From: Sphaerochaeta pleomorpha str. Grapes
GTDB lineage: Bacteria; Spirochaetota; Spirochaetia; Sphaerochaetales; Sphaerochaetaceae
DNA: 64,000 nt
NCBI RefSeq assembly: GCF_000236685.1
Contig: NC_016633.1
Coordinates: 1,860,001-1,924,000 of the forward strand
Direction of reading: 5' to 3'
Shown piece by piece: positions 23,352 to 42,766 of this stretch (its first letter is position 1; every line of letters starts with the position of its first letter). The position numbers and the translations under genes were made by a program. Below the pieces are notes generated by a model that had not been told where the DNA came from, made no database searches, and was given only the letters and a program-made list of their open reading frames with translations.

Positions 23352-24632
23352 TTATTTCTCCAGCATAATTTTCAGGATTTCCACATCGGTGGAATGCATA
23401 CCGACCTGGGCCATTTTGCCCACACTACGGATCGTGCTTTCCACATCGCGCTTCACCATGCCTTCACCATGCTTGAACACCCCTCCGTTATCCTGGATGC
23501 AATACCCATTCAAAGCTGCTTCCAGTGCAATCGAAATCTTTGCCGCGCAGGAGGGTTTCGCTCCGTCGCAAATCATTCCCCCTACCGTGCAGATGGAATT
23601 GGTGATGGTATTGGAAATCTCCTCATACCGTCCACCCAGCATATAGGCAACCCCACTGGCACTTCCCGTGGCGGCACAAACCACCCCACAGTAGGCCGAA
23701 AGGTCCCCGATATATTGTTTCTGATGGATGGCTACAAGGTTCGCGATTGCCAAGGCCTTCAGCACAGTCTCTCGTGGAGCTTTGAGTTCCTTTGCATACT
23801 CCACGATCGGCATCGTGAGGGTAATCCCCTGGTTCCCGCTTCCCGAGTTGATAATCACCGGCTTGGCACAGCCGCTCATGCGGGCATCAGAGCCTGCGGC
23901 TGCCGCCGCCCGTGCCTTGGTCCTCACATCCGAGTTTTCACCATTGGTCTTTAAAAGGGACCTTCCGACATTGGCACCCCAGGAATTCGACAATCCTTCG
24001 CGTGATATTTCTGAATTGAAGGCAATCTGTTTTCCAAGGATCTCTTCGACATCTTCCAATCGCAGGCAATCGGCAAAGGATATGATATCCTGAATATTCA
24101 AAAGACTGTAATCCAAATCCACTTCTCCGACGTTCTCTTCCAAAGCTTGTGAAAAAATGAGTTTTCCATCTTTCTCGATCCGAGTGATATGGGTATGCCT
24201 ATTCTTGATTTCCACCAGAACCTTATGGCCTTGGGCTTCCACCTCACAGACAATAATCAGATTATCATCCCCCTGTACCAAAGTGCAGGAGCAATAGAGA
24301 GGGTCCTTGAGTAACTCTTTTGTCTTTTCGATGTCCTCAGATGTAACTGCACTGAGTACTTCCAAAAGCATTTCCGGCTTTCCCCCGACAATACCGAGAA
24401 CCGTAGCGACATCGATGCCCTTGAGGCCGCCGGAATTTGGAACCGTAACACCCATTACATTCTTAATGATATTCCCGCTACAGCCAATCGTAATCTTTTC
24501 GGGAAGGCAGCCAAGGACCTCTCGGGCCTTGGCAGAACAGTAGGCTATCGCTATTGGTTCGGTACATCCAAGGGCTGGAACCAACTCATGCTTCAGTATC
24601 GCCACATACGCAGCATATTTCCTTTCATCCAT
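23352..24632 (-). CDS. UPF0597/CyuA-type desulfidase-like protein (paralogue 2, cassette A)
   Basis: 426 residues. Cysteines C23 (GCTEP), C51 (CSGN), C255 (GCAKP), C315 (YCG), C355 and C362 (CDGAKPSC) align with those of the other two paralogues, so an iron-sulfur cluster is likely intact. Known CyuA breaks L-cysteine to pyruvate, ammonia and sulfide. GGAAGG is 7 bases before ATG, and the stop of the fused DhaKL gene lies 12 bases upstream. As last gene of cassette A it probably acts late in the pathway, by an elimination reaction. The substrate is inferred only by family. Confidence 0.85.
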   Translation of the reverse strand: MDERKYAAYVAILKHELVPALGCTEPIAIAYCSAKAREVLGCLPEKITIGCSGNIIKNVMGVTVPNSGGLKGIDVATVLGIVGGKPEMLLEVLSAVTSEDIEKTKELLKDPLYCSCTLVQGDDNLIIVCEVEAQGHKVLVEIKNRHTHITRIEKDGKLIFSQALEENVGEVDLDYSLLNIQDIISFADCLRLEDVEEILGKQIAFNSEISREGLSNSWGANVGRSLLKTNGENSDVRTKARAAAAAGSDARMSGCAKPVIINSGSGNQGITLTMPIVEYAKELKAPRETVLKALAIANLVAIHQKQYIGDLSAYCGVVCAATGSASGVAYMLGGRYEEISNTITNSICTVGGMICDGAKPSCAAKISIALEAALNGYCIQDNGGVFKHGEGMVKRDVESTIRSVGKMAQVGMHSTDVEILKIMLEK

Positions 24633-24644
24633 GTTAAACCTTCC

Positions 24645-26387
24645 CTATTGTAGGGCTTTCGCAATTTCAGTGAACAACACCCCAAGCCCATAGGCCCCTG
24701 CATCAGGATAGCCGATACTCCTCGTCCCCACAGTCCCTGCACGTCCCATTCTGGCAACAATGCTCTCTGTGGCTTTGGCTCCTGCCATCGCAGCTTCAGC
24801 CCCTTTACCAAAACATTCTTTCAGGGAAAGTCCTTTGCTTGCATTCTCACTCCAACTGTCTGCACAGGGAGCAAGCGCATCGATCAAGGTTTTATCCCCG
24901 ACAACGGCTCCACGGCCAAAGGACCTCTCCCCTGTCATTTGGATGGCCTTTACACAGCCTTGCAGCAATTCAGCCATCTCAAGCGAAGTAACAAATTCCT
25001 TTCCTGCAGTATATTTGCCGGCACTGCGGAAGGCAGAACCCCAGATAGGGCCACTTGCCCCACCGCAATATTCCATAATGACAATCGAGCATTCATCAAG
25101 GAATTCGCTTATAGTGCCACTCTTTTCCAGAATGGTTTTCCACTCACGCTTGAGCTGTTTGAAACCCTTGGCAATACTCATCCCGAAATCACCGTCTCCG
25201 GCATGGGAATCCAATTCACAGAACGGAATCTCATTCTCTATTGCAACGGCTGAAAGCTTATCCACCAAATAGGTAAAATTCTCCAAGGTAAGTTTCTCAT
25301 CCTGGATACTTGCGCAGGAGGCAGGAACCTCGACGGTGAAAATAGCCTCTTTCACTTCTGACTTTGCCAGAGGTATGTAGGTAATATCCTGTTCCTTTCC
25401 ACTTAAGGTAAGAGCAGGAGTGTTTGCAGCAGCTACCAGATAGGTCTTCAGTTCATCATCGAGTTTCACCATAGTCAAAGAAGCGCCAGCCATATCGAGG
25501 CTTGTCATAAAATCACCGACAAACACCCTGACAACATTCACATTTTTTTCCTGCAGGGTATTGAGCACGGAATTATTGAAGGCATACAGCTCTTGAAGCG
25601 GGGTCGATCCGAACCCGTTCACCATGATTGCTACTTCAGCATTCCCCGCTTTTAATTCCTTGAGCAGGGGGTCGACCATTTGAGACACCAACTCATCGAT
25701 GCTCTTGACTTTCTGCCGGCAAATACCCGGCTCCCCGTGTATACCAACCCCGAATTCCATTTCATCCTCTGCCAGGGCAAAAGTCGGGGAACCCTTGGCG
25801 GGAACCGTGCAGGAAGAAAGGGCAAAACCCAGACTCTTGGTATTGGCAATCGTTTTCTCCGCAATCCTTTTTACTTCAGCAAGGGAAAGGCCGGCCTCGG
25901 CTGCAGCCCCTGCAATTTTATGCACAAATACCGTTCCTGCTACACCTCTTCTTCCCACGGTGTAGAGACTGTCTTCAACTGCGATATCATCATTGACAAT
26001 GACATATGCAACATCGATCCCATCTTCAAGAGCCAATTGCCTGGCATTCTTGAAGTTCATATTGTCACCGCTGTAGTTCTTGATAATCAAAAGAGTGCCT
26101 TTCTTGCTCTGGCTTGCTTTGATAGCTTTATAGACCTGTATCTGGGAAGGTGAAGCGAATACATCACCACAGACTGCTACATCAAGCATACCTTTTCCAA
26201 CATATCCCGCATGGGCGGGTTCATGCCCGGTACCACCACCCGAGATGAGCGAGACTTTCTCAGTATCGATTTCTTTTTTCATGATGAGTTTACTTTTGCT
26301 ATCGAATGCAAGTTCGGGATAGGCAGCAACCAATCCATTGCACATCTCATTTACCAAAGTCTCGGGACTATTGATTAATTTTTTCAT
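24645..26387 (-). CDS. Fused dihydroxyacetone-kinase-family protein (DhaK-DhaL)
   Basis: 580 residues, the length of ATP-dependent DAK kinases. N-terminal DAK1 domain (about 1-330): GGGTGHEPAH with H55, NYSGDNMNF with D108 and the covalent-substrate histidine H217 in GVGIHGEP. C-terminal DAK2 ATP-binding domain (about 365-580): DSHAGDGDFG metal aspartates, GGASGPIWG and MGRAGTVGTRSIG. The domains phosphorylate short ketoses (dihydroxyacetone, erythrulose) after hemiaminal binding to the His. No glycerol or erythritol genes are near; it sits with an importer, an ATC-hydrolase-like protein and a desulfidase, so the substrate is open. AGGAGG is 5 bases before ATG. Confidence 0.9.
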   Translation of the reverse strand: MKKLINSPETLVNEMCNGLVAAYPELAFDSKSKLIMKKEIDTEKVSLISGGGTGHEPAHAGYVGKGMLDVAVCGDVFASPSQIQVYKAIKASQSKKGTLLIIKNYSGDNMNFKNARQLALEDGIDVAYVIVNDDIAVEDSLYTVGRRGVAGTVFVHKIAGAAAEAGLSLAEVKRIAEKTIANTKSLGFALSSCTVPAKGSPTFALAEDEMEFGVGIHGEPGICRQKVKSIDELVSQMVDPLLKELKAGNAEVAIMVNGFGSTPLQELYAFNNSVLNTLQEKNVNVVRVFVGDFMTSLDMAGASLTMVKLDDELKTYLVAAANTPALTLSGKEQDITYIPLAKSEVKEAIFTVEVPASCASIQDEKLTLENFTYLVDKLSAVAIENEIPFCELDSHAGDGDFGMSIAKGFKQLKREWKTILEKSGTISEFLDECSIVIMEYCGGASGPIWGSAFRSAGKYTAGKEFVTSLEMAELLQGCVKAIQMTGERSFGRGAVVGDKTLIDALAPCADSWSENASKGLSLKECFGKGAEAAMAGAKATESIVARMGRAGTVGTRSIGYPDAGAYGLGVLFTEIAKALQ

Positions 26388-26479
26388 ACTATCCTCCTGT
26401 GATTCCTCTGCAAAACATGAACGGACCTATCGTCTTTTCGTGCGATACATCACATCAAACCATGATTCAGGCGAAAAAA

Positions 26480-26502
26480 AGCCCTCCCTCACAAAGAGGG
26501 CT
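26480..26502 (-). terminator. Internal terminator/attenuator before dhaKL
   Basis: Stem AGCCCTC/GAGGGCT with a 9-base loop followed on the minus strand by seven T. It lies between the ATC-hydrolase-like gene and dhaKL, so cassette A may be two transcription units or one with read-through control. Confidence 0.7.
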
Positions 26503-26523
26503 CATCTCCGGATCAAAATCAGC

Positions 26524-26549
26524 AAGGGGGAGCTGACTGCTTCCCCCTT
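26524..26549 (-). terminator. Second stem-loop just after the ATC-hydrolase-like gene
   Basis: AAGGGGGA-GC pairs with GC-(T)-TCCCCCTT around a 5-base loop, one bulged T. It precedes the T-run terminator at 26480-26502 and may be a 3'-stabilising hairpin. Confidence 0.5.
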
Positions 26550-26561
26550 ATACAATTACAA

Positions 26562-27059
26562 TTATTTGTTTTTTCTGAATGTTACTTCACAGATATCGTG
26601 ACCATTGGCGATGGTTTTACCAAGTTCATAGCCATAGTTACATTCAGCTGCAATACCTCTGTCCCCATCCATGGCAGCGTCACACATGAGCTTAATCTCT
26701 TCATCTGTCGCACCAAGCTTTTTCCAAGCAGTAACAAGCGGGCAGTAATGGAACTCAATATAAAGTTCGTCCTCATCACAACGTTTTACATCCATTTCGA
26801 ACACTTTCTGGACGTTGTCGGAGATAAAGACTTCTTTGAAAGCAGGAATACCCTCTTCTTTCTGGGCCCTCTGCATATTTGCACCATGGAAATGACCACA
26901 TTTGGTGATTGCCTCACGGGTGAAAGCCTCAGGATCCAAACCTGCTTTCTTGGCAGCTTCCATCATCAAGCACATCCAGGTTGCCCTGTGCTCGATAGCA
27001 CCTCTCAATACATTTACTATTTCATTGTCTACCAGTGTGGGTTCATTCTTGATTTCCAT
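26562..27059 (-). CDS. ATC-hydrolase-like protein (PF14196 type), cassette A
   Basis: 165 residues. Resembles the L-2-amino-thiazoline-4-carboxylate (ATC) hydrolase family, whose named Pseudomonas member opens the thiazoline ring on the way to L-cysteine; most members are uncharacterised. Shared with the cassette B protein: EHRATWM (23-29), RCG/KCG plus HG (C54, H58), YC in a hydrophobic strand (C106), CDxAMDGDRGIA (C126) and a C-terminal CE (C157). These four conserved cysteines and the His suggest metal binding or a catalytic thiol. It follows livF by 24 bases. Ring-opening or amidine hydrolysis is inferred only by family. Confidence 0.72.
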   Translation of the reverse strand: MEIKNEPTLVDNEIVNVLRGAIEHRATWMCLMMEAAKKAGLDPEAFTREAITKCGHFHGANMQRAQKEEGIPAFKEVFISDNVQKVFEMDVKRCDEDELYIEFHYCPLVTAWKKLGATDEEIKLMCDAAMDGDRGIAAECNYGYELGKTIANGHDICEVTFRKNK

Positions 27060-27083
27060 TTTTCTTTTTCCTTATTCTATTGG

Positions 27084-27803
27084 TTAAATATTTCCGAGAT
27101 ATGCCTTTCTGACATTATCATCTGTTAACAATTGTTTTCCTGTACCTTCCAGGGTTATCCTCCCTGTTTCCAGTACATAGGCCCTATCGGCAGTCTTGAG
27201 GGCCATTTTTGCATTCTGTTCTACCAGCAGAATGGTGACCCCGAGTTTCTTGATGTCCTTGATCAGATCGAATATCAGCATTACCAAGTTCGGAGAAAGC
27301 CCGAGAGACGGCTCATCCAATAACAGGACCTTGGGATCACTCATCAAAGCCCTTCCGATGGCAAGCATCTGCTGCTCACCCCCGCTTAGCGTCTTTGCAA
27401 CCTGGGTCTTCCTTTCAAACAGCCGGGGAAAAAGGCTGTAGACCTTTTCATAGTCCTGGGCAATCTTCACCTTGTCTTTCCTGGTGAAAGCCCCCAGTTT
27501 CAGATTGTCCTGCACAGAAAGGTCAGGGAACACTTCTCTTCCCTCAGGGGAAAGACAGATGCCCATTTTCACAATTTCCGCTGCGCTGCAATGGGCTAGG
27601 TCATTACCATCATAGATAATCTGTCCTTTCTTAGGCTTCAAAAGACCTACGATGGTGTTTAGAGTTGTTGATTTCCCTGCCCCGTTACTACCAATCAAGG
27701 CTACGATTTCACCTTTCCCGATTTCCATATTGATGCCTTTTACAGCATGGATCATTCCGTAGTAGGTATTGACATCTTTGAGTTCGAGAATTGGTTTAGG
27801 CAT
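27084..27803 (-). CDS. livF: Branched-chain-amino-acid-type ABC importer ATPase LivF, cassette A
   Basis: 239 residues. Walker A GSNGAGKST, signature LSGGEQQ, Walker B VLLLDEP and the LivF-type switch region LLVEQNAKMAL. ATG 27803 (MPKPIL) is chosen because GGAGG lies upstream and the fold begins there; it overlaps the livG stop by 8 bases. Works with LivG, LivH, LivM and the binding protein LivK. Confidence 0.92.
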   Translation of the reverse strand: MPKPILELKDVNTYYGMIHAVKGINMEIGKGEIVALIGSNGAGKSTTLNTIVGLLKPKKGQIIYDGNDLAHCSAAEIVKMGICLSPEGREVFPDLSVQDNLKLGAFTRKDKVKIAQDYEKVYSLFPRLFERKTQVAKTLSGGEQQMLAIGRALMSDPKVLLLDEPSLGLSPNLVMLIFDLIKDIKKLGVTILLVEQNAKMALKTADRAYVLETGRITLEGTGKQLLTDDNVRKAYLGNI

Positions 27804-28602
27804 GTTGCTCTTCCTCCTCTTCATCTTCATCTTCTTCGCCAAGGTACGCTACGATTACATCCTTGTTGGTGGCAATTTCCTGGGGAAGGCCCTCTGCAAT
27901 TTTCCGGCCGTGGTCAATGACGTAGATCCTGTCTGAGATATTCATGACCAGGTTCATGTCATGTTCAATCAAAACGATGGTAAAACCTTTGGAGACCAAG
28001 CTACGGATAAAGGCTAGCAACTCTTCGGATTCTTCGGGATTCATGCCCGCAGCAGGTTCATCAAGCAAAATCAATTGGGCCTCGGTAGCAATAGCACGTG
28101 CTATCTCTACCTTTCGCTGGTCTCCATAAGGAAGATTCGAGGGATAATCGTGGATATATTTATCAAGTTCAAGGAACTTAAGGATATCGACGGCTTTCTG
28201 TTGTTTTTCTTTTTCCAGTGTCCGGTACTTTTTAGTATGGAAAACCAGATCAAAAAAATTATAGTCAGTATTGGTATGCATGCCCAACAGGACATTCTGG
28301 ATTACCCTCATGTCAGAAAAAAGCCGGATATTTTGGAATGTCCGGGCCATTCCCGCTTTTACGATAGCCTGGGGAGTCTTCCCTTGGATTTCCTCTCCAT
28401 TGAAGAAGATTTGTCCACGGGTAGGTTGATAGACCCCGGTGAGCATATTGAATACCGTGGTCTTACCGGCACCGTTCGGCCCAATGATGCTTACAATCTC
28501 CCCTCTGTTTACCTGGAAATCAACATCATCTACGGCTTTGAGGCCTCCGAACTGTATGGATAGGTTTTTAACCAGCAGAATAGGATCCTGTTTAGTTTCC
28601 AT
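27796..28602 (-). CDS. livG: Branched-chain-amino-acid-type ABC importer ATPase LivG, cassette A
   Basis: 268 residues. Walker A GPNGAGKTT, LivG-type signature region LPYGDQRKVEIARA and Walker B LILLDEPAAGMNP, with IEHDMNLVM switch. Overlaps livM by 11 bases. Oddity: the C-terminus is a run of acidic residues (EEDEDEEEEEQHA) absent from the cassette B LivG and from typical LivG. Confidence 0.92.
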   Translation of the reverse strand: METKQDPILLVKNLSIQFGGLKAVDDVDFQVNRGEIVSIIGPNGAGKTTVFNMLTGVYQPTRGQIFFNGEEIQGKTPQAIVKAGMARTFQNIRLFSDMRVIQNVLLGMHTNTDYNFFDLVFHTKKYRTLEKEKQQKAVDILKFLELDKYIHDYPSNLPYGDQRKVEIARAIATEAQLILLDEPAAGMNPEESEELLAFIRSLVSKGFTIVLIEHDMNLVMNISDRIYVIDHGRKIAEGLPQEIATNKDVIVAYLGEEDEDEEEEEQHA

Positions 28603-29593
28603 AGGATTGCACCCCTTTCATCAGTTTGAAGGGCTTGTTGCTATGCCCCCCGAGAATTCCCTCAGGTTTGAATCTCATCATCAAGACAAGAATCAAGCCA
28701 TAGATGATGAACCGATACTCGCTGGCAAACCTCAAAATTTCCGGGAAGGAAATCAGCAGTGCTGCACCAAGGAACGAACCGGCAATGGATCCTGTTCCCC
28801 CGAGAATGACAATACTGATAATGATAATGGAGATGTCGAAATTGAAGGTATTGGGGTCAAGGAACCTGACAAAGTGAACATAGAACGCTCCTCCAAGACC
28901 TGCGATTGCCGCAGAGATGACAAAACTTTTCATCTTGTAGGCAGTTACATCCACACCCATCATGGTAGCAGCCAAAGAATCATCCCTGATCGCCATGAAA
29001 GCCCTTCCCATTTTCGAATTGACGATTCGATAGACAACCAGCGTTACCAAAGCTGTCATGATGATTGAAAGGTAGAAAAACCCGCCATTGAAGGTAGTGA
29101 GGGTAATACCGAAAAACTCAGGCCTTTCAATGTGGTTCACCCCTAATGGGCCACCTGTAAAGGATTGCCAGTTAAGTGCAACCATCTTGACGATTTCCCC
29201 GAAACCCAATGTCGCGATAGTAAGGTAACTGCCGGACAATCTACTGGTAGGGGCTGCAAGCATCAGACCGACAATACCTGCCATGACCATGCCGCAAAGC
29301 GCCGTTACCAACCAGGGAAGCCCCAGGTATTGCCACATCAGAGCCGAAGTATACCCACCTACGGCGCAGAAGCCCGCATGCCCGATCGATACAAGTCCCG
29401 TAAACCCAGTTAAAAGGTTCAAAGACAGGGAAAGCATCGAATACAGGGAAATCATGGTAAGGATACGCACGATGTAGGGTGATAAAAGGCCACTTTTGGG
29501 AAGATAGAGAACCAGTATAACCAGCACAGCCAGGGCTGCTATCTTCTTCGGTTTTGAATCCAATAGTTTTTTGCTTGTTTTGTTATGTTTCAT
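28592..29593 (-). CDS. livM: Branched-chain-amino-acid-type ABC importer permease LivM, cassette A
   Basis: 333 residues with about nine hydrophobic segments. LivM landmarks: GFTGLVSIGHAGFCAVGGY near 75-95, SGSYLTIATLGFGEI near 130-145, GRAFMAIRDDSLAA coupling region near 210 and VILGGTGSIAGSFLGAALL near 270. Four bases after livH. Confidence 0.9.
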   Translation of the reverse strand: MKHNKTSKKLLDSKPKKIAALAVLVILVLYLPKSGLLSPYIVRILTMISLYSMLSLSLNLLTGFTGLVSIGHAGFCAVGGYTSALMWQYLGLPWLVTALCGMVMAGIVGLMLAAPTSRLSGSYLTIATLGFGEIVKMVALNWQSFTGGPLGVNHIERPEFFGITLTTFNGGFFYLSIIMTALVTLVVYRIVNSKMGRAFMAIRDDSLAATMMGVDVTAYKMKSFVISAAIAGLGGAFYVHFVRFLDPNTFNFDISIIIISIVILGGTGSIAGSFLGAALLISFPEILRFASEYRFIIYGLILVLMMRFKPEGILGGHSNKPFKLMKGVQSYGN

Positions 29594-29596
29594 GAT

Positions 29597-30475
29597 TTAT
29601 ACCTTTTCAATCACCTTTTTGCCAAATAATCCATTCGGACGGAAAATGAGCACAATAATCAGAATGATGAATGCAACGGCATCACGATACCCACCACCGA
29701 GATAGTAGGCAGCAAAACTCTCTGCAAGTCCAACGACCAGGCCTCCGAACACAGCACCATGGAGGATTCCGATCCCTCCCAGAACTGCAGCGGAAAAAGC
29801 CTTGAGACCGGCTATAAATCCCATTTGCGGATTGACAATCTGGTAATAGCCGCTGATCAGTGAGCCTGCAACTGCAGCGGAAGCCCCACCCAAAAAGAAC
29901 GTAAACGAAATAACTTTATTAACATCAATGCCCATCAGTGATGCAGCCTTTGCATTCTGTTGCACGGCCCGCATAGCCAATCCAATCTTTGTTTTTTGGA
30001 CAATGAACGTTAAAAGGAGCAAAAGGGCAACGGAGACAGCAATTATTCCAACCTGAGTCGATTTAATCAAAATGTTTCCAACGGTAAAATTCCCATAGTC
30101 AAAAATCTTGGGAAACCACTTCGACCTGCTGCCAAACACGATCATCAGGAAATTCTGGATAATATAAGAACACCCAATAGTGGTGATAAGGGCAGAAATT
30201 CCCTTTGACTTCTTTACTCGTAGTGGTCTCAGGGCAATTCGATCCATCAGCATGGTCATACCGCCAGTTACCAAGACACTAACAACCACACCCCAGAACA
30301 GTCCGAAGCTTGTCGATACGACTACGACCATAGCGATATGAGCGCCGAAAGCGTAGGTAGCTCCATGGGCAAAGTTAACCAGGCGAAGAACGCCGAATAC
30401 CAGAGAATACCCAACGGCAATCAAGGCATAGACAATGCCTAGGGTTAATCCATCAAATACTTGTTGTAGAATCAT
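29597..30475 (-). CDS. livH: Branched-chain-amino-acid-type ABC importer permease LivH, cassette A
   Basis: 292 residues with about eight hydrophobic segments; LivH landmarks GLTLGIVYALIAVGYSLVFG, LRLVNFAHGATYA and the coupling stretch GLAMRAVQQNAKAASLMGI, plus AAVLGGIGILHGAVFGG. GGGAG is 5 bases before ATG. A stem-loop separates it from the upstream livK gene. Confidence 0.9.
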   Translation of the reverse strand: MILQQVFDGLTLGIVYALIAVGYSLVFGVLRLVNFAHGATYAFGAHIAMVVVVSTSFGLFWGVVVSVLVTGGMTMLMDRIALRPLRVKKSKGISALITTIGCSYIIQNFLMIVFGSRSKWFPKIFDYGNFTVGNILIKSTQVGIIAVSVALLLLLTFIVQKTKIGLAMRAVQQNAKAASLMGIDVNKVISFTFFLGGASAAVAGSLISGYYQIVNPQMGFIAGLKAFSAAVLGGIGILHGAVFGGLVVGLAESFAAYYLGGGYRDAVAFIILIIVLIFRPNGLFGKKVIEKV

Positions 30476-30500
30476 ACTAGCTCCCTACGTACTTACTTGA

Positions 30501-34694: not shown

Positions 34695-35702
34695 CTATTT
34701 GTTTTCGGAAGTATAGAACGGAGAAGATGCAGGTTTTCTCAACAGAGCTTTCAATTGCTCGTCAAGTTTCATGATTGTAATCGATAGCCCGGCCATCTCC
34801 ATCGAAGTGGCAAATTCACCGATATGGGGCATAAACACTGACACTCCCTGTTCCTTGAGCCTGGAAGCTACACGACTGTAGACAAGAATCTGTTCCTCAA
34901 GCGGAGTGGCGCCAAGTCCGTTCACCATAACTGCCACCTCCGAGCCTTTTGCCAGGGGCATGTCGTTGACAATCTTTTCAAAGATGAAATCGGCAATTTC
35001 ATTGGCCGTCAACATCTTGCAGACTTCGATCCCCCGTTCCCCATGAATACCCATTCCCAACTCCAGCTCATCGTCTTCGATGGTGAAGGTCGGTTTGCCC
35101 ACCTCAGGGACGATACAGGGAGAAAGAGCGACGCCCATGGTCCGTATGTTGGAAACTGCCTTCTTTGTGACAGCCACAACTTCTTCCAAACTCATCATTT
35201 CATCGGCCGCGGCACCGGCAACCTTGAATGCGAAAACCATGCCGGCAACGCCACGCCTTTTCTCTGCAGTTTCCCTTGGACTGGAAGCCACGTCGTCGGT
35301 AACAAGCACGCTCATGGTCTCGATGTCGTCCATTTCTACCATCTCACATGCCATAGCAAAATTCATCTTGTCCCCACCGTAATTCCCATAGAGACACAGA
35401 ACGCCATTGCCATCGTCACAAGCGGTGATCATGGCAGCCATTTTCTTGGCAGAGGGAGAAGCAAACACATTTCCTACTGCACAGCCATCTAGCAAACCGG
35501 AACCAACATACCCAAGAAACACCGGAAGATGTCCACTGCCTCCGGCTGTGACAATTCCTACCTTTCCTTTTTTTCTAGGATAGGCTGATACAAGGATTCG
35601 CTTGTCTCCATCAAGGAGACGAACCCTGTCACCATAGGCCAATTCAATTCCAACCATTACTTCATCGACGAAATTCTGGGGTTCATTCATAATTTTTTTC
35701 AT
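34695..35702 (-). CDS. DhaK-type substrate-binding kinase subunit, cassette B
   Basis: 335 residues. DAK1 domain with GGSGHLPVFLGYVG (H58), NYGGDKMNF (D111) and the covalent-substrate His H220 in GMGIHGERG. It departs from canonical DhaK and from the cassette A protein at HLP (usually HEP), close to the substrate, which suggests a different ketose or keto substrate. ATG 35702 is chosen (AGGA 8 bases upstream, 13 bases after the livF stop); an upstream extension runs into livF. Confidence 0.88.
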   Translation of the reverse strand: MKKIMNEPQNFVDEVMVGIELAYGDRVRLLDGDKRILVSAYPRKKGKVGIVTAGGSGHLPVFLGYVGSGLLDGCAVGNVFASPSAKKMAAMITACDDGNGVLCLYGNYGGDKMNFAMACEMVEMDDIETMSVLVTDDVASSPRETAEKRRGVAGMVFAFKVAGAAADEMMSLEEVVAVTKKAVSNIRTMGVALSPCIVPEVGKPTFTIEDDELELGMGIHGERGIEVCKMLTANEIADFIFEKIVNDMPLAKGSEVAVMVNGLGATPLEEQILVYSRVASRLKEQGVSVFMPHIGEFATSMEMAGLSITIMKLDEQLKALLRKPASSPFYTSENK

Positions 35703-35715
35703 TTGTTTTTCCTTA

Positions 35716-36432
35716 TTAACCGCCCAAATAGGCTTTGATAATCGCAGGGTTGTGCAATAATTCTTCCCCGCTTCCTTCCAATGTGATAGTACCGGTTTCA
35801 AGGACATACCCCCGATCTGCGATCGACAAGGCCATGGAGGCATTCTGCTCGATCAAAAGAATGGTCTTTCCTTTTTGCCGGATGCGTACCAACAATTCAA
35901 AAATCTCCTCGACAATGATGGGAGCCAACCCCAATGACGGCTCATCCAACATGATAAGGTCGGGATCCATCATCAGGCCTCTGGCAATTGCAAGCATTTG
36001 CTGCTCACCGCCGGACAAAGAGCCCCCTGCCTGGGTGAGGCGTTCCTTCAAGCGAGGGAACATCAGGTAATTCATCTCCAGCAATTCCTGGAATTTCTCC
36101 TTGGTCTGTTTCGGCTGCCCCATACTCCCCGAGACAAGGTTCTCGTAGACAGTCATATCGGGGAATATTTTACGTCCTTCCGGAACATGGGCTATGCCCA
36201 TTTTTACAATTTTCTCAGGCGAGAGTCTCGAAATATCCTGACCTTTGAAGAATACGTTCCCCCCTGCCTTGGGAATCAGATTGGAAATTCCCATCAAAGT
36301 GCTGGTCTTACCGGCACCATTGCCTCCGATCAGGGTCACCAATTCACCTTCATTCACTACGATGTCAGCATTTCGCAAGGCTGAAATATAACCATAGTTA
36401 ATGCTCAAATCTTCAATTTTCAGCAGCGACAT
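35716..36432 (-). CDS. livF: LivF-type ABC ATPase, cassette B
   Basis: 238 residues: Walker A GGNGAGKTS, signature LSGGEQQ, Walker B LIMLDEPSLGLAP, switch LLIEQNASMAL. GGAGG is about 6 bases before ATG, which overlaps the end of livG by 20 bases. Confidence 0.92.
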   Translation of the reverse strand: MSLLKIEDLSINYGYISALRNADIVVNEGELVTLIGGNGAGKTSTLMGISNLIPKAGGNVFFKGQDISRLSPEKIVKMGIAHVPEGRKIFPDMTVYENLVSGSMGQPKQTKEKFQELLEMNYLMFPRLKERLTQAGGSLSGGEQQMLAIARGLMMDPDLIMLDEPSLGLAPIIVEEIFELLVRIRQKGKTILLIEQNASMALSIADRGYVLETGTITLEGSGEELLHNPAIIKAYLGG

Positions 36433-37228
36433 TGATTGCCTCCCCGGCTACAAGCCCTTTTCCAAAGTACGCTTCACGTACATTCTGATTCGTCTTGATG
36501 ACATCAGGAGTGCCTTCACAGATTTGTTGCCCAAAATTCAATACAATAATCCTATTGCAGGTGTTCATCACAAACTTCATGTCGTGCTCAATTACCCCAA
36601 TTGTATATCCCAAGGCATTGATCTTCAGAATATAGTCAGAAAGCTCTTTGGTCTCATTCGGGTTCATTCCCGCAGCCGGTTCATCAAGCAAGAGGATTTT
36701 GGGGTTGATTGCCAAAGCCCTGGCTATTTCAACTTTCCGTTGGACACCATAGGGAAGATTCCCCGCCTTGGTCTCCGTATATTTGGAAAGCCCAACCAGA
36801 TCAAGAATTTCCTTGCCCTTTTCAATTGCGTAGGCTTCATCGGCATTGAACTGCTTGGTATGAAACACAGTGTCAATCAGATTCGATTTCAAATTGAGAT
36901 GGAAACCAATCTTGATATTGTCCAAAACACTCATATACTTGAACAGTTTGATGTTCTGGAATGTTCGTGCCATTCCTTTCTTTGCAATCTGTTCAGGTTT
37001 TAAGTTGGTGATATCCTCGCCGCAGAGAAATACTTTTCCCTTTGTAGGGAGGTTAAACCCAGTGCAGGAGTTGAACAGGGTTGTCTTTCCGGCACCGTTC
37101 GGACCAATGATGCCATAGATATCCCCTTGGTGAATTTCCAGATTTATATCCTCCACTGCGTGCAATCCACCAAAATACATACAAATATGTTCAGTACTCA
37201 GTACCGGTTGTCTCTGTATCTCAAGCAT
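36413..37228 (-). CDS. livG: LivG-type ABC ATPase, cassette B
   Basis: 271 residues: Walker A GPNGAGKTT, LPYGVQRKVEIARA, Walker B ILLLDEPAAGMNP, switch IEHDMKFVM. ATG 37228 (MLEIQR) is chosen from a GGGGGA site 6-7 bases upstream; it overlaps the livM stop by 8 bases. Lacks the acidic tail of the cassette A LivG. Confidence 0.92.
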   Translation of the reverse strand: MLEIQRQPVLSTEHICMYFGGLHAVEDINLEIHQGDIYGIIGPNGAGKTTLFNSCTGFNLPTKGKVFLCGEDITNLKPEQIAKKGMARTFQNIKLFKYMSVLDNIKIGFHLNLKSNLIDTVFHTKQFNADEAYAIEKGKEILDLVGLSKYTETKAGNLPYGVQRKVEIARALAINPKILLLDEPAAGMNPNETKELSDYILKINALGYTIGVIEHDMKFVMNTCNRIIVLNFGQQICEGTPDVIKTNQNVREAYFGKGLVAGEAINVAAEN

Positions 37229-38237
37229 GTTTTTTCCCCCGATCCTGCAATTTTCCCACCATTTTGTTACCAGCAAGTTTGCTGTCAGTAGCCCCAGCAA
37301 GCCCTTGGGGGCGATACCACATCATAATAATGATCAACAAGGCAAAGGCCACCAAACGCCATTGTCCAATAGGACGGAGTACTTCTGTGAGGAAATTTAC
37401 GATAATAGAGCCGATTACCGGACCAATAAAAGTTCCTTGCCCACCCAAAATTACCATGGAGAGAATGTTCCATCCTTCGTCCAACGTAAAATAGGTCGAG
37501 TCGATAAACCTGACATAGGGGGCATATACGCAACCCACAACCCCAATCCAAAAAGCCCCATACATAAAGTTGAAAGCTTTGTAAACCGAAGCATTTACCC
37601 CAAGACTTTTCGAAGCCAGTTCATCTTCACGGATAGACATCCAGGCGCGTCCGATTTTGCTCTTGATAACTCTGTTCGATACGAAAATAAAGACTATCGC
37701 CAGAGCCAAAAAGAGGTAGTAATAGGAACGTGAATTTTTGAATACGATTCCAAACAGCTCAGGTACCGGAATATTCTTGATACCCAAGGCACCCCCGGTC
37801 AATGGGGTTGCATTCAAAGCCAACAAGCGGGCAATCTCCGAAAACCCCAAAGTGACGATGGCGAGATAGATACCACTCATCTTCAAGGTCGGCCATGCCA
37901 CAACCAGACCGACGATAGCTGTTACGATTCCTGCAAGAGGTATACACAGCCAGAAACTCAGTCCGACTTTCGTCGCCAGGATAGCCTCGGTATAGGCACC
38001 GAAACAGAAGAATCCGGCAACCCCCAGACAAGTTTGTCCACTGTATCCATTGATAATATTCAAAGCCCCTGCAAGGGTTGCATACATCAATATCCTGCAC
38101 ATAACGCCCATAACATAGCTTTTATTATTGACAAGCGGTAAGACAAACAGAAAAGCCAACAAGAGAAGGGAATACAATACTTTATGTTTGTCAAAAATCA
38201 ATTTAGCCCGTTTTTTTGTATCTGCGAGCATGTTCAT
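37221..38237 (-). CDS. livM: LivM-type ABC permease, cassette B
   Basis: 338 residues, about nine hydrophobic segments; GYSGQTCLGVAGFFCFGAY near 65-83, SGIYLAIVTLGFSEI near 120, GRAWMSIREDELASKSLGV coupling region and VILGGQGTFIGPVIGS. ATG overlaps the livH stop by 4 bases (ATGA). Confidence 0.9.
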   Translation of the reverse strand: MNMLADTKKRAKLIFDKHKVLYSLLLLAFLFVLPLVNNKSYVMGVMCRILMYATLAGALNIINGYSGQTCLGVAGFFCFGAYTEAILATKVGLSFWLCIPLAGIVTAIVGLVVAWPTLKMSGIYLAIVTLGFSEIARLLALNATPLTGGALGIKNIPVPELFGIVFKNSRSYYYLFLALAIVFIFVSNRVIKSKIGRAWMSIREDELASKSLGVNASVYKAFNFMYGAFWIGVVGCVYAPYVRFIDSTYFTLDEGWNILSMVILGGQGTFIGPVIGSIIVNFLTEVLRPIGQWRLVAFALLIIIMMWYRPQGLAGATDSKLAGNKMVGKLQDRGKKHA

Positions 38238-39109
38238 ACTTTCGTCCCCCTCTTCTTCACGAACCCGGTCGGTTTGAAAATCAAGACTAGAATGAGGAAC
38301 CCAAAGGCAAATACATCACGATAGCTAGCAGAAGTGACAGTAATTCCAAGGTTCTCAACAAGTCCAATGCACAAGCCACCCAAGGCTGAGAACCTTACAT
38401 CAGTCAACCCGCCCAATACGGATGCAGAGAAGGCCTTCATTCCCAAGGCCCCACCCATCGTTGCCTGTACAACCTGGTAGTAAATACAGATAAGCAGACC
38501 GGCAATGCCACCCAGACCGCAACCGACACAATTGCCAAGCATGGCAATCCTTTTTACATTTATCCCAACCATATAGGCTGCACTCTTGTCCTGACTGACA
38601 GCTCTAAGCATGACCCCGAATTTTGTATGGTAGAAAATATAATTAAGGGCTACGGCAAGACACACGACAAGAGAGATAATCATAATCTGCAACGAACTGA
38701 TCTGCATTGCCCCAATATGGTAGAATTTAATATGTACGATATTCAGCATCGGTATCTGGTTTGGACCAAAAAAGATTTGAGCCAGGTTCTTTACCAACAT
38801 GGAAAACCCAATTGTACACAACAACGAGATATGGCGCGGAGAGTTGAAAAATCGCTCGTAACAAACCTTGTAAACAAAAATGCCCATTACCCAAGAGGCA
38901 AGGAAGGCGACAGTAAAGCCCAATATAAGGTTGGTACCACAATACTGGAACACATAGTAGGCAGCAAACGCTCCCATTATCATCACTTCACCATGGGTGA
39001 ACGTGACCATTCCGACAACGCCGACAACAACAGAATAACCAATAGCCATCAAGGCATAGATTGCACCCTGACATAACCCATTGATTATTTGATTGAGGAA
39101 ATATTCCAT
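38234..39109 (-). CDS. livH: LivH-type ABC permease, cassette B
   Basis: 291 residues, about eight hydrophobic segments; GLCQGAIYALMAIGYSVVVG, VTFTHGEVMIMG, coupling stretch GVMLRAVSQDKSAAYMVGI and ASVLGGLTDVRFSALGG. AGGGG lies 7 bases before ATG. Confidence 0.9.
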   Translation of the reverse strand: MEYFLNQIINGLCQGAIYALMAIGYSVVVGVVGMVTFTHGEVMIMGAFAAYYVFQYCGTNLILGFTVAFLASWVMGIFVYKVCYERFFNSPRHISLLCTIGFSMLVKNLAQIFFGPNQIPMLNIVHIKFYHIGAMQISSLQIMIISLVVCLAVALNYIFYHTKFGVMLRAVSQDKSAAYMVGINVKRIAMLGNCVGCGLGGIAGLLICIYYQVVQATMGGALGMKAFSASVLGGLTDVRFSALGGLCIGLVENLGITVTSASYRDVFAFGFLILVLIFKPTGFVKKRGTKV

Positions 39110-39141
39110 TGCAACACCCCTTCACCAGAAGTTCAGTAAGA

Positions 39142-39173
39142 TTCGGCGCCGATATATGTATATCGACGCCGAA
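39142..39173 (-). promoter_or_regulatory. Stem-loop between livK and livH, cassette B
   Basis: TTCGGCG-C-CGATATA pairs with TATATCG-A-CGCCGAA around a 2-base turn, with a single C/A mismatch. Same position as the stem-loop in cassette A, but unrelated in sequence. No T-run. Confidence 0.6.
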
Positions 39174-39183
39174 GAGATCATGC

Positions 39184-40350
39184 TTATTCTGCTGAATAGT
39201 CAAAACCCTTTTTCACTACATACTGGCCATTCTCAACCTGACAGATCAAATAGGCACGGGTGATATCCCCATCCTTATTGAATTTGATTGGTCCCGTAAT
39301 CCCGGTATATTCATTACGTGCAAGATTGTCCCTGATTCCCTGGCGTGTAACAGTATCTCCACAGGAATTGATAGCCTGGGCAATCAGGTTTACACAGTCA
39401 AAAGCACAGGCAGGGTGTACGGTAGGATTGAATTTGGCTTTGTCATTGAATTCAGTCTTCCAAGCCATCAACTCAGGAACCTGGGGGTCAAAGAAGAAAG
39501 GAGTCGACAGGATAAGACCTTCTGAATTTGCTCCGGTCAGACCGATCAACTGTTCAGAGGTTCCTGGTCCGAGGGTAGTCAAGGGAACATCCCAACCCAT
39601 GGCTCTCACTTGGTTAATGACCTGTGCAACAGCACCTTGGTCCATGATAATGAGGGCCTCGGGATTTGCTGCCTTGAGTTTGGTAATCAAAGAAGAGAAG
39701 TCCTTCTCATCTTGGACATAGTTGACCTCTGTTACAATTTCAACACCTGCTTCATTCGCAGCCTTACGGAAATTGTCTGCAGCTGATACACCCCAATCGC
39801 TATTGATGTAGATTAATCCGATTTTTTTCACACCCATGTACTTGCTGATGATGTATTTGGCAAAGAAAGGAGCTTCTCCATCCTGCCGGCCCATGATACT
39901 GAAACAGTAATCACTCATGCCTGCATATTTAGGATTGGAAGCAGTCGGAGACAGTTGTACAATTTTGGCATCATCCACGATCGGTGCATTGGCCATACTG
40001 CAACCGCTGGTAAAATCACCAATAATTGCCATAATGTCGGAATCATCACAGAATTGCCTGGTCAAGTCAGAACTCTCTTTCGGATCCCCCTTGGAATCTT
40101 TGGGAACAAGTATCAGTTTATACCCGTTAGCCCCACCTGCTGCGTTGATTCTGTCTGCAGCCATCTGGGTTCCAATCTTGAAACCTACACCATATTCGGC
40201 ATTGGTACCGGTTAAAGGACCCAACACGCCGATTTTGATGATTCCTTTGAATCCCTCGGCTTTGGCAGCCTCTTCTTCTTTGTTACCATTGGCAAAAAGA
40301 GCCATCGAAAGCATCATAAGGACACAAAGCAACGCACATAGTTTTTTCAT
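39184..40350 (-). CDS. livK: Periplasmic LivK-type substrate-binding protein, cassette B
   Basis: 388 residues. Signal peptide about 1-20 ending MALFANG, then Periplas_BP_6 fold: IKIGVLGPLTGTNAEYG, INAAGGANGYKL, GDFTSGCSMANAP, SPTASNPKYAGMSDYCF. The N-terminal lobe resembles the cassette A protein, including an SPxASxPxYxGM segment in the hinge/pocket area, but the C-lobes diverge. Follows the ATC-hydrolase-like gene by about 40 bases. Confidence 0.9.
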   Translation of the reverse strand: MKKLCALLCVLMMLSMALFANGNKEEEAAKAEGFKGIIKIGVLGPLTGTNAEYGVGFKIGTQMAADRINAAGGANGYKLILVPKDSKGDPKESSDLTRQFCDDSDIMAIIGDFTSGCSMANAPIVDDAKIVQLSPTASNPKYAGMSDYCFSIMGRQDGEAPFFAKYIISKYMGVKKIGLIYINSDWGVSAADNFRKAANEAGVEIVTEVNYVQDEKDFSSLITKLKAANPEALIIMDQGAVAQVINQVRAMGWDVPLTTLGPGTSEQLIGLTGANSEGLILSTPFFFDPQVPELMAWKTEFNDKAKFNPTVHPACAFDCVNLIAQAINSCGDTVTRQGIRDNLARNEYTGITGPIKFNKDGDITRAYLICQVENGQYVVKKGFDYSAE

Positions 40351-40390
40351 AAAAATCTTCTCCTTTTTGGTTTTTATTTGAAAGCTGTTT

Positions 40391-40894
40391 TTATTTGTGG
40401 AAATTCAGTTCACAGGTCTTACATCCCTTAGCTAGGGTATCGGACAAATCAAGGGTCAAGCCCATTGCCTTGGCAATACCTCTGTCCCCGTCCATTGCAA
40501 TGTCACAAAGCAGGGCACAGGTTGCATCATCCATCCCGAGTTTCTTCCAAGCAGAGAGCAAAGCGCAATAATTGAAAGAAATATGGAGACAATCCTGCTT
40601 TGCTTCGATGTTGTCCATATGGAATGTGTCTTGGCCACATTTATTGAGAAAGGTCTTCTCGAATTCGCGTACATCGGAAGGATCTGCACAGTTCTCCCTG
40701 ATTTTTGCCCCGTGTATCTCCCCACATCTATATACTGCTTTTCGCATGATGGGTTCTGGATCGATGCCTGCATTTTTCATTTCGTCAAAAAACAGTGCCA
40801 TCCACGTAGCACGATGTTCAACCTGGGATCTGTTGGTCGAAGCTACCTCATTCACTACATTTTCAATGTTCTCAATCACAATCTGCTCCTTCAT
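40391..40894 (-). CDS. ATC-hydrolase-like protein (PF14196 type), cassette B
   Basis: 167 residues, paralogue of the protein at 26562-27059. Conserved: EHRATWM (26-32), RCG plus HG (C57, H61), YCALLSAWKKLG (C110), CDIAMDGDRGIA (C130) and TCE (C161). Here it is the first gene of the cassette, ahead of the binding protein, whereas in cassette A it follows livF. Early position and high conservation suggest a central catalytic role. AAGG lies about 5 bases before ATG. Reaction unproven. Confidence 0.72.
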   Translation of the reverse strand: MKEQIVIENIENVVNEVASTNRSQVEHRATWMALFFDEMKNAGIDPEPIMRKAVYRCGEIHGAKIRENCADPSDVREFEKTFLNKCGQDTFHMDNIEAKQDCLHISFNYCALLSAWKKLGMDDATCALLCDIAMDGDRGIAKAMGLTLDLSDTLAKGCKTCELNFHK

Positions 40895-41155: not shown

Positions 41156-41821
41156 TTGAATACTGTAAAAAGCAAATATACCGTTTCCTCAAAAAAGAAA
41201 TATTTTTATGATACGATTCTCTCACGGATAATCCTATGCAATTATAACTCAGGGGATATTATTACAGAAAAATCCCTTGTAGATGAATTTCTGATTAGCA
41301 AATCACCGATCAGGGAAGCTTTGATTGAACTGTGCAACGAAGGATTCCTTAAAAGCATCCCTCGATTCGGGTATGAAGTAGTTTCCTTCAGTGAAGAAAA
41401 CATTTTTCAGCTCACTGAATATAGAACCATTCTCGAATGCGGATACCTGGAAACCCATTGGGATAGCATCACAGCTGAGAATATCCAGACACTCAAGAAT
41501 ATTCTCCAGGCAAATTACGCCGAACGGGATAAGAAAGCAGCACTTGAACACTGGGAACATAATTCGGAATTCCACCTGACATTGATTTCTTTTTCCGGCA
41601 ATGCTTTTATTTACAAACAATTGAAAAGTGCCATGCAATACCTGGGAGTGGCATATGCCCAAGCCTATTGGATTAACCTCCATACGGAAAATATTGTCAG
41701 TGAATGCGAATGCCATAAACGCTTCATCCATCTATTGGAGACAAACAATAAGAAAGAAGCCTTAGAATGTCTGCACCAGGATATCGAAAACTTTTCCAAA
41801 ATTGAAAACCAAAACAATTAA
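41156..41821 (+). CDS. GntR-family regulator (FCD type), cassette B
   Basis: 221 residues, similar over its full length to the cassette A regulator. Winged helix about 20-80 (SKSPIREALIELCNEGFL) and helical effector domain. Likely TTG start at 41156, with AAGGA about 9 bases upstream; no in-frame ATG gives a complete DNA-binding domain. Divergent from the ATC-hydrolase-like gene and 12 bases before a PfkB kinase gene on the same strand. Confidence 0.85.
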   Translation: MNTVKSKYTVSSKKKYFYDTILSRIILCNYNSGDIITEKSLVDEFLISKSPIREALIELCNEGFLKSIPRFGYEVVSFSEENIFQLTEYRTILECGYLETHWDSITAENIQTLKNILQANYAERDKKAALEHWEHNSEFHLTLISFSGNAFIYKQLKSAMQYLGVAYAQAYWINLHTENIVSECECHKRFIHLLETNNKKEALECLHQDIENFSKIENQNN

Positions 41822-41833
41822 TAAGGAAATTCC

Positions 41834-42766
41834 ATGGAGAAAATAGCTGTCATTGGAAGTTATGTTGCCGATATCATGGCACGCACACCCCATATCCCTG
41901 CCTTGGGTGAAACCGTAAAGGGTTCATTTTTCCGCATAGGTGCAGGAGGCAAGGGATTCAACCAAGCGATAGCTGCGGCAAAATCCGGCAATATTCCGCT
42001 GTTCGTTACAAAAATCGGGGATGATCATTTCGGGGCTATGGCTCTGCAGATGTTGCAGGAAAATGGTATCGACCCTGCTGATAGTATCGTAGACCCGGCT
42101 GAAGATACAGGGATTGCACTTATCTCTGTCGATGAACAATCAGGACAGAATGAAATAATCGTAGTTCCGGGTGCTTCCGGTACGTTTACCAAGAAAGATA
42201 CTGCAAAGATTGCTGCCTGCCTTGCTGGATTTTCTTATCTCCTTGTCCAATTGGAGATAAATATCGAGGCCACCCTCGACTTGGTTGAACAGGCAAAGGA
42301 AATGTGTATAAAAACAATCCTGAACCCTGCCCCAGTCCAAGAAATTCCCGATTCCCTCTATAAAGGCCTGTTTCTGATTTCTCCCAATGAAGTGGAAGCC
42401 CAGCAATTATCAGGCCTTCCCTACCGAAGTGATGCCGACTGTACCCCGATTGCAGAGTTCTTCTTTTCAAAAGGCGTACAAAACGTAGTCATTACGCTTG
42501 GTAAAAGGGGAGCTTATCTGAACACAGGGAAAGACGAATACTTCATCGATAACTACAAAGTTCCTGTAGTCGATACGACAGGGGCCGGAGATGCCTTCAA
42601 TGGTGGCTTGCTATCAGGCTTGAGCAAGGGTATGGACCTAGTCAATGCTTTTAACTATGCAAATGTCGTTGCTAATCTCTCAATCACAAAAACAGGCACG
42701 AGCAATGCAATGCCAAACAAGCAGGATATCGACAGGTTTCTCCTGGAACATGCAATTGTGCTGTAA
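41834..42766 (+). CDS. PfkB-family sugar kinase, ribokinase-like
   Basis: 310 residues. Ribokinase features: N-terminal GSYVADIMARTPHIPALGE, GAGGKGFNQAIAAAKSG near 37-53, NPAPVQEIP near 170, SPNEVEAQQL, and the catalytic DTTGAGDAFNGG near 245-256. Phosphorylates a pentose or similar. It is co-transcribed with the cassette B GntR regulator, so it may belong to the same pathway, or serve the ribose-type importer that follows at 45 kb. Confidence 0.9.
   Translation: MEKIAVIGSYVADIMARTPHIPALGETVKGSFFRIGAGGKGFNQAIAAAKSGNIPLFVTKIGDDHFGAMALQMLQENGIDPADSIVDPAEDTGIALISVDEQSGQNEIIVVPGASGTFTKKDTAKIAACLAGFSYLLVQLEINIEATLDLVEQAKEMCIKTILNPAPVQEIPDSLYKGLFLISPNEVEAQQLSGLPYRSDADCTPIAEFFFSKGVQNVVITLGKRGAYLNTGKDEYFIDNYKVPVVDTTGAGDAFNGGLLSGLSKGMDLVNAFNYANVVANLSITKTGTSNAMPNKQDIDRFLLEHAIVL

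Follow-up and report, generated by a model that had tools for sequence, protein, structure and literature searches.

Within a 64-kb window of the Sphaerochaeta pleomorpha str. Grapes genome (contig NC_016633.1, positions 1,860,001 to 1,924,000; coordinates below are positions in this window), two adjacent minus-strand gene cassettes, A (23352-31702) and B (32773-40894), share a five-subunit Liv-type ATP-binding cassette (ABC) importer (LivK, LivH, LivM, LivG and LivF), a protein of the PF14196 'ATC hydrolase' (2-aminothiazoline-4-carboxylate hydrolase) family, DhaK and DhaL dihydroxyacetone kinase domains, a CyuA-like protein and a divergent GntR regulator; a PfkB kinase accompanies B only. 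The gene order, strands and coordinates first described from the letters alone (the sequence-only reading) were borne out. The top Pfam match of each gene of A and B exceeds its gathering cut-off, against which all Pfam calls were judged, and both cassettes have operon-like spacing: neighboring genes overlap, or stand apart, by no more than 74 bp, the sole exception being the 174 bp between dhaKL and the PF14196 gene of A. Both cassettes are real and complete. From gene content, conservation, motifs and a predicted fold, which were observed directly, we infer tentatively that each may be a catabolic operon under GntR control, serving an adduct of cysteine and a carbonyl compound (probably a thiazolidine-4-carboxylate) whose use would involve ring opening, phosphorylation and desulfuration.

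The evidence that these genes belong together comes from their recurrence. A collection of 84,980 species was scanned with both PF14196 proteins of the window and three near relatives, giving 175 pattern matches, of which 148 were relatives (the genome stretches, or loci, compared with the window cassettes are labeled L004-L190). Co-occurrence was counted for the best 80 of the 148 relatives, with Liv scored as present at four or more subunits; 42 of these loci are well flanked, with at least 7 kb on each side of the PF14196 gene. Liv is found in 28 of the 42 well-flanked loci, cyuA in 26 and dhaK in 25, with at least one of them in 35 and all three in 14. Across all 80 loci, truncated contigs included, the corresponding numbers are 40, 34, 35, 52 and 16 (a short cyuA piece of 97 bits in L073 falls below threshold and is not counted). 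Judging from the host genome itself (three Dak1 and six SDH_alpha genes in 3.59 Mb), a 20.5-kb stretch taken at random would be expected to contain Dak1 about 1.7% and SDH_alpha about 3.4% of the time. The observed 25/42 for dhaK and 26/42 for cyuA, together with the reciprocal DhaK test below, rule out a chance neighborhood, although the surveyed loci are related by descent and so not independent for binomial-type statistics.

The set occurs in Treponema, Sphaerochaeta, Brachyspira, Lachnospiraceae, Christensenellaceae and other Clostridia, in orders that include atc-LIV-dhaK-dhaL-cyuA, atc-LIV-SDR-dhaK-dhaL, cyuA-atc-LIV-dhaK-dhaL, atc-LIV-cyuA and liv-atc-atc-dhaK-dhaL-cyuA (atc denoting the PF14196 gene). 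Because the families recur in other species with new orders, fused or split kinases and swapped importers, selection keeps the set together, as the sequence-only reading had argued from the two window cassettes. In L083, L093, L100, L106 and the 5-kb contig L097, the PF14196 and cyuA genes adjoin one another and neither Liv nor a kinase was found, so that this pair looks like a core. An SDR gene lies inside the cassette in 11 of the 42 loci (weak matches outside any cassette in L073, at 30%, and L104, at 26%, are left out), and an aldo-keto reductase gene in L072 and L076. A PfkB match shares the stretch with the cassette in L018, L061, L078, L085 and L102. The PF14196 protein of B gave no match in 50,697 phage records; 26 plasmid records match it, none at 60% identity or above.

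For the reciprocal test, the window's phylum was represented by 392 genomes, in which the B-type DhaK matches fall into groups of at least 66% and at most 58% identity (stretches L173, L182, L185, L187, L189 and L190 stop at contig ends). Seven of the eight non-self DhaK in the upper group, L149 being one of the eight, have Liv (five), cyuA (four) or PF14196 (four) at distances up to about 9 kb; L176, the remaining one, lies with a sugar-type ABC importer. None of the 16 DhaK at 46-58% identity, comprising 13 from the phylum scan and three at 55-56% (L167-L169), has Liv, cyuA or PF14196 nearby. The PF14196 family as a whole, with matches in 95 of the 392 genomes, behaves differently from the close relatives: among 40 matches hand-sampled down the list of those above cut-off, favoring ones far from contig ends, three lie within a cassette (L135, L145 and L149) and two near a cyuA-like gene (L157, adjacent; L160, about 0.9 kb away). 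The genome co-occurrence predicted by the sequence-only reading thus holds for close PF14196 relatives (35/42) and fails for PF14196 at large (5/40), and linkage to the cassette is confined to the PF14196 subfamily near the two window proteins. Within that subfamily the families do not co-occur rarely, the outcome which that reading had named as telling against it, though no gene of the set is obligatory.

Judging from their sequences, A and B are old relatives, not recent copies. Their proteins are 52% (CyuA), 50% (LivF), 48% (LivG), 43% (GntR), 42% (PF14196), 40% (DhaK), 38% (LivM), 36% (LivH), 31% (LivK) and 28% (DhaL) identical by blastp. In a kinase tree, A-type proteins form one clade of 9 rows, and B-type proteins together with the genome's third DhaK form another of 26 rows, both with support of 100/100; the program warns of long branches meeting between the clades, and the midpoint root serves for drawing. 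Each clade holds Spirochaetota and Bacillota members. Recent tandem duplication of one operon is ruled out by the 28-52% identity and by the presence of each kinase type in both phyla. A strict linkage of subtypes was also rejected: A-type Liv occurs with B-like PF14196 in L045, L047, L048, L052, L053, L067 and L091, and with B-type DhaK in L087, L094, L177 and L178. Among named relatives, the closest that has a cassette is L031, an assembly of Sphaerochaeta (79-94% identity to B proteins), and L042 resembles the window in having an A-like cassette, lacking the kinase, beside a B cassette. Outside its cassettes, the 3.59-Mb single-contig host genome has one more PF14196, one more Dak1 and four more SDH_alpha genes.

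According to a 2025 study of Methanococcus maripaludis MmCyuA (PMC12647591), Cys287, Cys329 and Cys336 are the cluster ligands, Cys23 and Glu25 are essential and not conserved in serine dehydratases, and serine is an inhibitor and not a substrate. Using the residue roles given there, we find that CyuA-A and CyuA-B keep the three cluster cysteines, the Cys23/Glu25 pair and the equivalents of Arg223 and Asn239, so that the CyuA-type label of the sequence-only reading is supported at the level of conserved residues. The full catalytic and cluster set is kept in 31 of 34 further cassette CyuA proteins (copies shorter than 380 aa being left out of the comparison), with Asp replacing Glu25 in L098, L100 and L102. 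Like the solved MmCyuA (9FYI/9HE0), the cassette proteins belong to the desulfidase family with its catalytic and cluster residues, but they are only distantly related to MmCyuA (phmmer E ~6e-22) and stand in an operon with a kinase, PF14196 and a Liv importer. No NCBIfam model matched CyuA-A or CyuA-B at E 0.001. Another CyuA L-cysteine desulfidase system is cyuPA of E. coli.

Further CyuA-family genes were observed elsewhere. An SDH_alpha (PF03313) protein lies at window positions 1103-2461, about 21 kb from cassette A, with residues 215-445 matching profile positions 23-258. In the same genome, L170:6341-10091 (~158340-162090) holds a CyuA-like gene (49% identity to B), a GntR gene and two CUT1-like sugar-type ABC permease genes, and no DhaK. 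L098:9932-18009 has PF14196, cyuA, dhaK and dhaL followed by amidohydrolase, antiporter-family (PF03553) and PepV-like dipeptidase genes, with no Liv found.

The label 'ATC-hydrolase-like' given by the sequence-only reading stands insofar as both PF14196 proteins score above the family cut-off (Table 1), but the name is only that of the family, and no carbamoylase lies beside either gene. An AlphaFold2 model of the B protein from a 46-sequence alignment (pLDDT 94.7) has its top fold matches in Bet3, a TRAPP subunit, and in the MopR, PoxR and DmpR phenol-sensor domains, with weaker matches to a V4R-family protein and H-NOX proteins. The scores are Z 9.9 with 1wc9 (143 residues aligned, root-mean-square deviation 4.0) and Z 8.9 with MopR 7vqf (139 aligned, 3.9); the best Foldseek E is 4.5e-4 with TM 0.50. 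A search for a solved relative by sequence gave none with a profile at E up to 10 and none convincing with the single protein. Cys110, Cys130 and Cys161 are invariant in the 46 aligned sequences, and these three cysteines and Asp131 are kept in 17-18 further or overlapping sequences found by a profile of that alignment, a pattern that points to a likely metal or cluster site. The MopR sensor domain has a zinc site.

Several other PF14196 settings were noted. The genome's third PF14196 gene (L004:8941-9597, genome ~1928940-1929596) lies 5 kb past the window; its neighbor is a ketopantoate-reductase-like (ApbA) gene, and its stretch contains none of the cassette partners. At L102:12961-14673, beside a full cassette, a 570-aa protein carries its PF14196 domain at residues 359-496, while its N-terminal half has no Pfam match; related matches occur in L094 and L157. 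On an Enterobacter asburiae plasmid (L030:7932-12886), PF14196 is found near GntR, an amino-acid binding protein, an FrlB-like SIS protein and an FrlD-like kinase, both of these fructoselysine deglycase and kinase homologues scoring under curated cut-offs. L083:5145-15790 holds gntR, PF14196, cyuA, M24 peptidase, hydantoinase A, NCS1-type permease, SufS-like and hydantoinase-B-like genes (hydantoinase/oxoprolinase-type), a set that hints at ring opening of a cysteine lactam or hydantoin. A uroporphyrinogen decarboxylase-like (URO-D) gene recurs near PF14196 in L029 and L110, and as cluster c9 in L050, L069 and L085. The family name appears in a table in PMC9674144.

The two kinases differ in how closely they follow known dihydroxyacetone kinases, and the short-ketose kinase assignment of the sequence-only reading holds accordingly for A, by family scores and motifs, and less well for B. 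DhaKL of A exceeds the cut-offs of PRK14479 (707.5 vs 492) and dhaK1 (450.2 vs 406.25) and has the classical motifs SGGGTGHEP and GGASG, with its DhaL half falling below TIGR02365 (127.7 vs 138.3). The B kinase is still Dak1/Dak2 by Pfam but scores below the equivalog cut-offs (dhaK1, 358.5 vs 406.25; DhaL, 115.5 vs 138.3), and B-type proteins have their own motif set, with slight variation among copies: GHLP instead of GHEP, YGNYGGD, and an APSSLGT-like loop replacing the DhaL GG(A/S)SG. The genome's third DhaK also has GHLP, and its neighbors include a ureidoglycolate-lyase-like gene and a sugar ABC importer of the rhamnose/autoinducer-2 type; from this, B-type kinases probably act on some ketose that is not dihydroxyacetone. 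The PfkB protein of B scores 286 bits against the ribokinase model TIGR02152, just below the cut-off of 299.65. The open reading frame (ORF) of the B dhaK reaches 35843; since homology to its family (TIGR02363) begins at residue 48, 47 codons in, its start is likely ~35702. The gene labeled dhaL in L090 is a 229-aa DhaK piece. In L052:10310-11817, a layout repeated in L067 (two Treponema assemblies), an MlaE-like permease gene (below cut-off) and an ABC ATPase-like gene follow Liv at the place expected for the kinase.

All five importer subunits of A and B fall in the Pfam families expected of LivKHMGF. The solved binding proteins nearest to the cassette LivK are 3hut (putative) and 4gnr. Among 43 LivK compared, the window's two included (ORFs longer than 330 aa, more than 40% identity), the A-type and B-type pockets differ and each is conserved across two phyla; where 4gnr and 3ip5 have Asp, 31 B-type proteins have Gly and 12 A-type proteins have Ser. 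The acidic (LivJ-type) position in 4gnr and 3ip5 is the site for the ligand's ammonium group. Two distinct ligands, neither offering the usual free alpha-ammonium anchor, would fit a ring nitrogen, though weakly. In L040 and L055, Liv is replaced by a sugar-type ABC importer (Peripla_BP_4) with the same enzymes alongside, and in L072 and L076 by an importer with a BMP-family-like binding protein (~27% identity), where an M20 hydrolase is present as well as the aldo-keto reductase. BMP-type importers are nucleoside-like. A peptide (Dpp) assignment for the L072/L076 importer was dropped, the binding protein matching the BMP family. Such exchange of Liv, sugar and BMP importers beside the same enzymes is expected for a molecule with both amino-acid and sugar features.

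Under the proposed reading, the substrate would be an adduct that joins L-cysteine to a carbonyl compound such as a short sugar, either a 2-substituted thiazolidine-4-carboxylate or the open form of one. Thiazolidine-4-carboxylates form from cysteine and carbonyls; their ring is ATC-like, and opening would take place at the carbon on which ATC hydrolase acts, ring position C2. The Liv importer would take up the adduct, and the PF14196 protein would open the ring at C2 to give cysteine and the free carbonyl compound. DhaKL would phosphorylate this carbonyl half through its hydroxyketone site (resembling dihydroxyacetone or a triose in A, and some other ketose in B), PfkB may help in B if an aldose is released, and an SDR or aldo-keto reductase may perform or share the carbonyl clean-up in other species. 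CyuA would split cysteine into pyruvate, ammonia and sulfide. Because the LivK pockets and DhaKL types differ while the CyuA catalytic residues do not, A and B may serve two related substrates with the same cysteine-like half and different carbonyl halves. A molecule combining a cysteine-like portion with a ketose or aldehyde portion would explain the pairing of CyuA with a kinase, the importer swaps, the reductase swaps and additions and the presence of PfkB, as well as PF14196 near Frl-like genes in L030 and hydantoinase/oxoprolinase-type genes in L083. The idea of a single pathway, raised by the sequence-only reading, is plausible, and its chemistry is put forward here conditionally. A more specific version is doubtful: a dedicated pathway for sugar- or carbonyl-cysteine adducts in two old substrate-specific versions across Spirochaetota and Clostridia, in which a V4R-fold PF14196 protein would open the ring, a divergent DhaKL would salvage the sugar and CyuA would release sulfide.

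Several observations weigh against the cysteine-adduct reading. Every component is missing somewhere (cyuA in 16, dhaK in 17 and Liv in 14 of the 42 loci), seven of the 42 have no partner at all, and L172-L174 have DhaKL and CyuA with no PF14196 within the stretch examined. Of the 40 sampled PF14196 matches in the phylum, 35 have no cassette partner, which also rules out PF14196 as a whole as a marker of the cassette. SDR co-occurs with DhaKL in eight loci and so does not simply replace the kinase. In fold, the PF14196 protein is closest to subunits of trafficking complexes and to proteins that bind or sense ligands, none of them hydrolases. Thiazolidines partly open spontaneously, so an enzyme for this step may be unnecessary. 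Finally, no paper on such a pathway or gene set was found in the openly licensed literature searched.

The strongest competing account, which we consider rather unlikely, also posits one pathway, without cysteine: the SDH_alpha enzyme would remove ammonia or another group from a non-sulfur hydroxyl- or sugar-chain amino acid, DhaKL would phosphorylate the hydroxyketone product and PF14196 would be a metal- or ligand-binding helper. The sensor- and TRAPP-like fold matches fit such a helper, as do the three invariant cysteines as a metal site, although fold gives no certainty on catalysis. The LivK pocket without the Asp of the ammonium site and the replacement of the catalytic Glu by Asp in three cassette CyuA proteins also favor it, but the cysteine desulfidase Cys/Glu pair and three cluster cysteines are kept in A, B and 31 of the 34 others, and serine is reported to inhibit MmCyuA and not to be a substrate (PMC12647591).

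It is unlikely that the cassettes combine two separate, co-regulated jobs in energy or redox metabolism, with import and desulfuration of cysteine, cystine or a simple derivative on one side and disposal of dihydroxyacetone or tetrulose from elsewhere on the other. Cassettes that lack dhaK (L056, L060 and L074) or cyuA (L033, L037 and L039) fit such a division, and so does the B-type DhaK of L176, which has a plain sugar ABC importer and neither PF14196 nor cyuA, a further point against the cysteine-adduct reading. The host genome likewise has the CyuA-GntR-sugar ABC unit of L170 without DhaK, and a DhaKL with a sugar ABC unit and no CyuA in L167. What two separate jobs would hardly explain is why one kinase subtype should repeatedly be joined to PF14196, CyuA and Liv, across two phyla and two separate lineages of kinase. 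A true L-ATC pathway (2-aminothiazoline-4-carboxylate to N-carbamoyl-L-cysteine to cysteine to sulfide and pyruvate, the kinase being accessory) is very unlikely: the PF14196 family name and Pfam scores, the adjacency to CyuA and the M20 amidohydrolase next to the PF14196/CyuA pair in L072 and L076 speak for it, but no N-carbamoyl-L-cysteine amidohydrolase or hydantoinase candidate lies among the genes of A and B (no search of the rest of the genome was made for the amidohydrolase) and DhaKL is not known to have a part in that pathway.

In the Pseudomonas L-ATC pathway, L-ATC hydrolase is followed by N-carbamoyl-L-cysteine amidohydrolase. The cassettes resemble it in the PF14196 family and in a cysteine-related ring compound, and differ in lacking a carbamoylase, in adding Liv, DhaKL and CyuA, and in occurring in Spirochaetota and Clostridia. 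With DhaKLM and ATP-dependent dihydroxyacetone kinases they share DhaK and DhaL domains with the histidine and aspartate motifs; unlike DhaKLM, they have no DhaM among their genes, and the B kinase departs from it in its GHLP motif, DhaL loop and sub-cut-off scores. The importer has all five subunits of the LivKHMGF (HAAT) branched-chain type but differs in its two own pocket types with Gly (B) or Ser (A) at the acidic position. Frl and Fra operons, for the Amadori compounds fructoselysine and fructose-asparagine, combine conjugate import, a sugar kinase, a splitting enzyme and GntR-type control. On the proposed reading the cassettes would resemble them in all four respects, and in L030 a PF14196 gene lies beside Frl-like genes, but the cassettes lack an SIS-type deglycase or FrlD-type kinase and the L030 proteins stay under curated cut-offs. 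All parts thus belong to known families; their enzyme combination in an ABC-import catabolic operon we could not find in the literature searched.

Table 1. Genes of cassettes A and B with window positions, strand and family assignment
Feature	Position	Strand	Assignment
cyuA-like, cassette A	23352-24632	-	[4Fe-4S] cysteine desulfidase-type, PF03313, 197.9 bits
fused dhaK-dhaL, cassette A	24645-26387	-	Dak1 424 bits, Dak2 138 bits; classical motifs
PF14196 'ATC hydrolase'-family gene, cassette A	26562-27059	-	76.3 bits vs cut-off 28.1
livF ATPase, cassette A	27084-27842	-	PF00005, 114 bits
livG ATPase, cassette A	27796-28602	-	PF00005, PF12399
livM permease, cassette A	28592-29593	-	PF02653, 159 bits
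livH permease, cassette A	29597-30475	-	PF02653, 140 bits
livK binding protein, cassette A, A-type pocket	30542-31702	-	PF13458, 197 bits
gntR(FCD), cassette A, divergent	31972-32673	+	PF00392, PF07729
cyuA-like, cassette B	32773-34062	-	PF03313, 202.6 bits
dhaL, cassette B, B-type (APSSLGT loop)	34062-34685	-	PF02734, 130 bits
dhaK, cassette B, B-type (GHLP, YGNYGGD)	34695 to ~35702	-	PF02733, 387 bits
livF ATPase, cassette B	35716-36432	-	PF00005
livG ATPase, cassette B	36413 to ~37228	-	PF00005, PF12399; ORF to 37300, start picked by eye
livM permease, cassette B	37221-38237	-	PF02653
livH permease, cassette B	38234-39109	-	PF02653
livK binding protein, cassette B, B-type pocket	39184-40350	-	PF13458, 217 bits
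PF14196 gene, cassette B, V4R/TRAPP-like predicted fold	40391-40894	-	87.9 bits vs cut-off 28.1
gntR(FCD), cassette B, divergent	41156-41821	+	PF00392, PF07729
pfkB, ribokinase-like, 12 bp after B gntR	41834-42766	+	PF00294, 211 bits

A perfect 14-bp palindrome at 31787-31800, between livK and gntR of A, is a candidate GntR operator: an identical copy lies between gntR and livK in another genome of the same genus (L020:2308-2321), and no second exact copy was found anywhere in the window. No operator common to A and B was found, the longest stretch shared by the two upstream regions being 9 bp. Beside cassette A, at 20421-22167, a HipA-type kinase gene (20857-22167) follows a 127-aa ORF with no Pfam match, possibly a toxin-antitoxin pair. 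After gntR and pfkB of B, a separate sugar-type operon at 43146-49490 encodes ROK, SIS, a two-domain ABC ATPase, BPD_transp_2, Peripla_BP_4 and a second ROK protein.

If the cysteine-adduct reading is correct, the cassettes would give anaerobes of the gut and of sediments a new route to recover carbon and nitrogen from cysteine-carbonyl products, to which sugars or reactive carbonyls give rise in food, in hosts or in decaying matter, with hydrogen sulfide as a product. It would also provide a role for a widespread protein family named after one enzyme, mark out DhaKL kinases of a second kind and account for the repeated grouping of a cysteine desulfidase with a ketose kinase and an importer for amino acids. 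Should the proposed substrate prove mistaken, this would still be a clearly delimited set of genes that recurs and can be tested one purified protein at a time.

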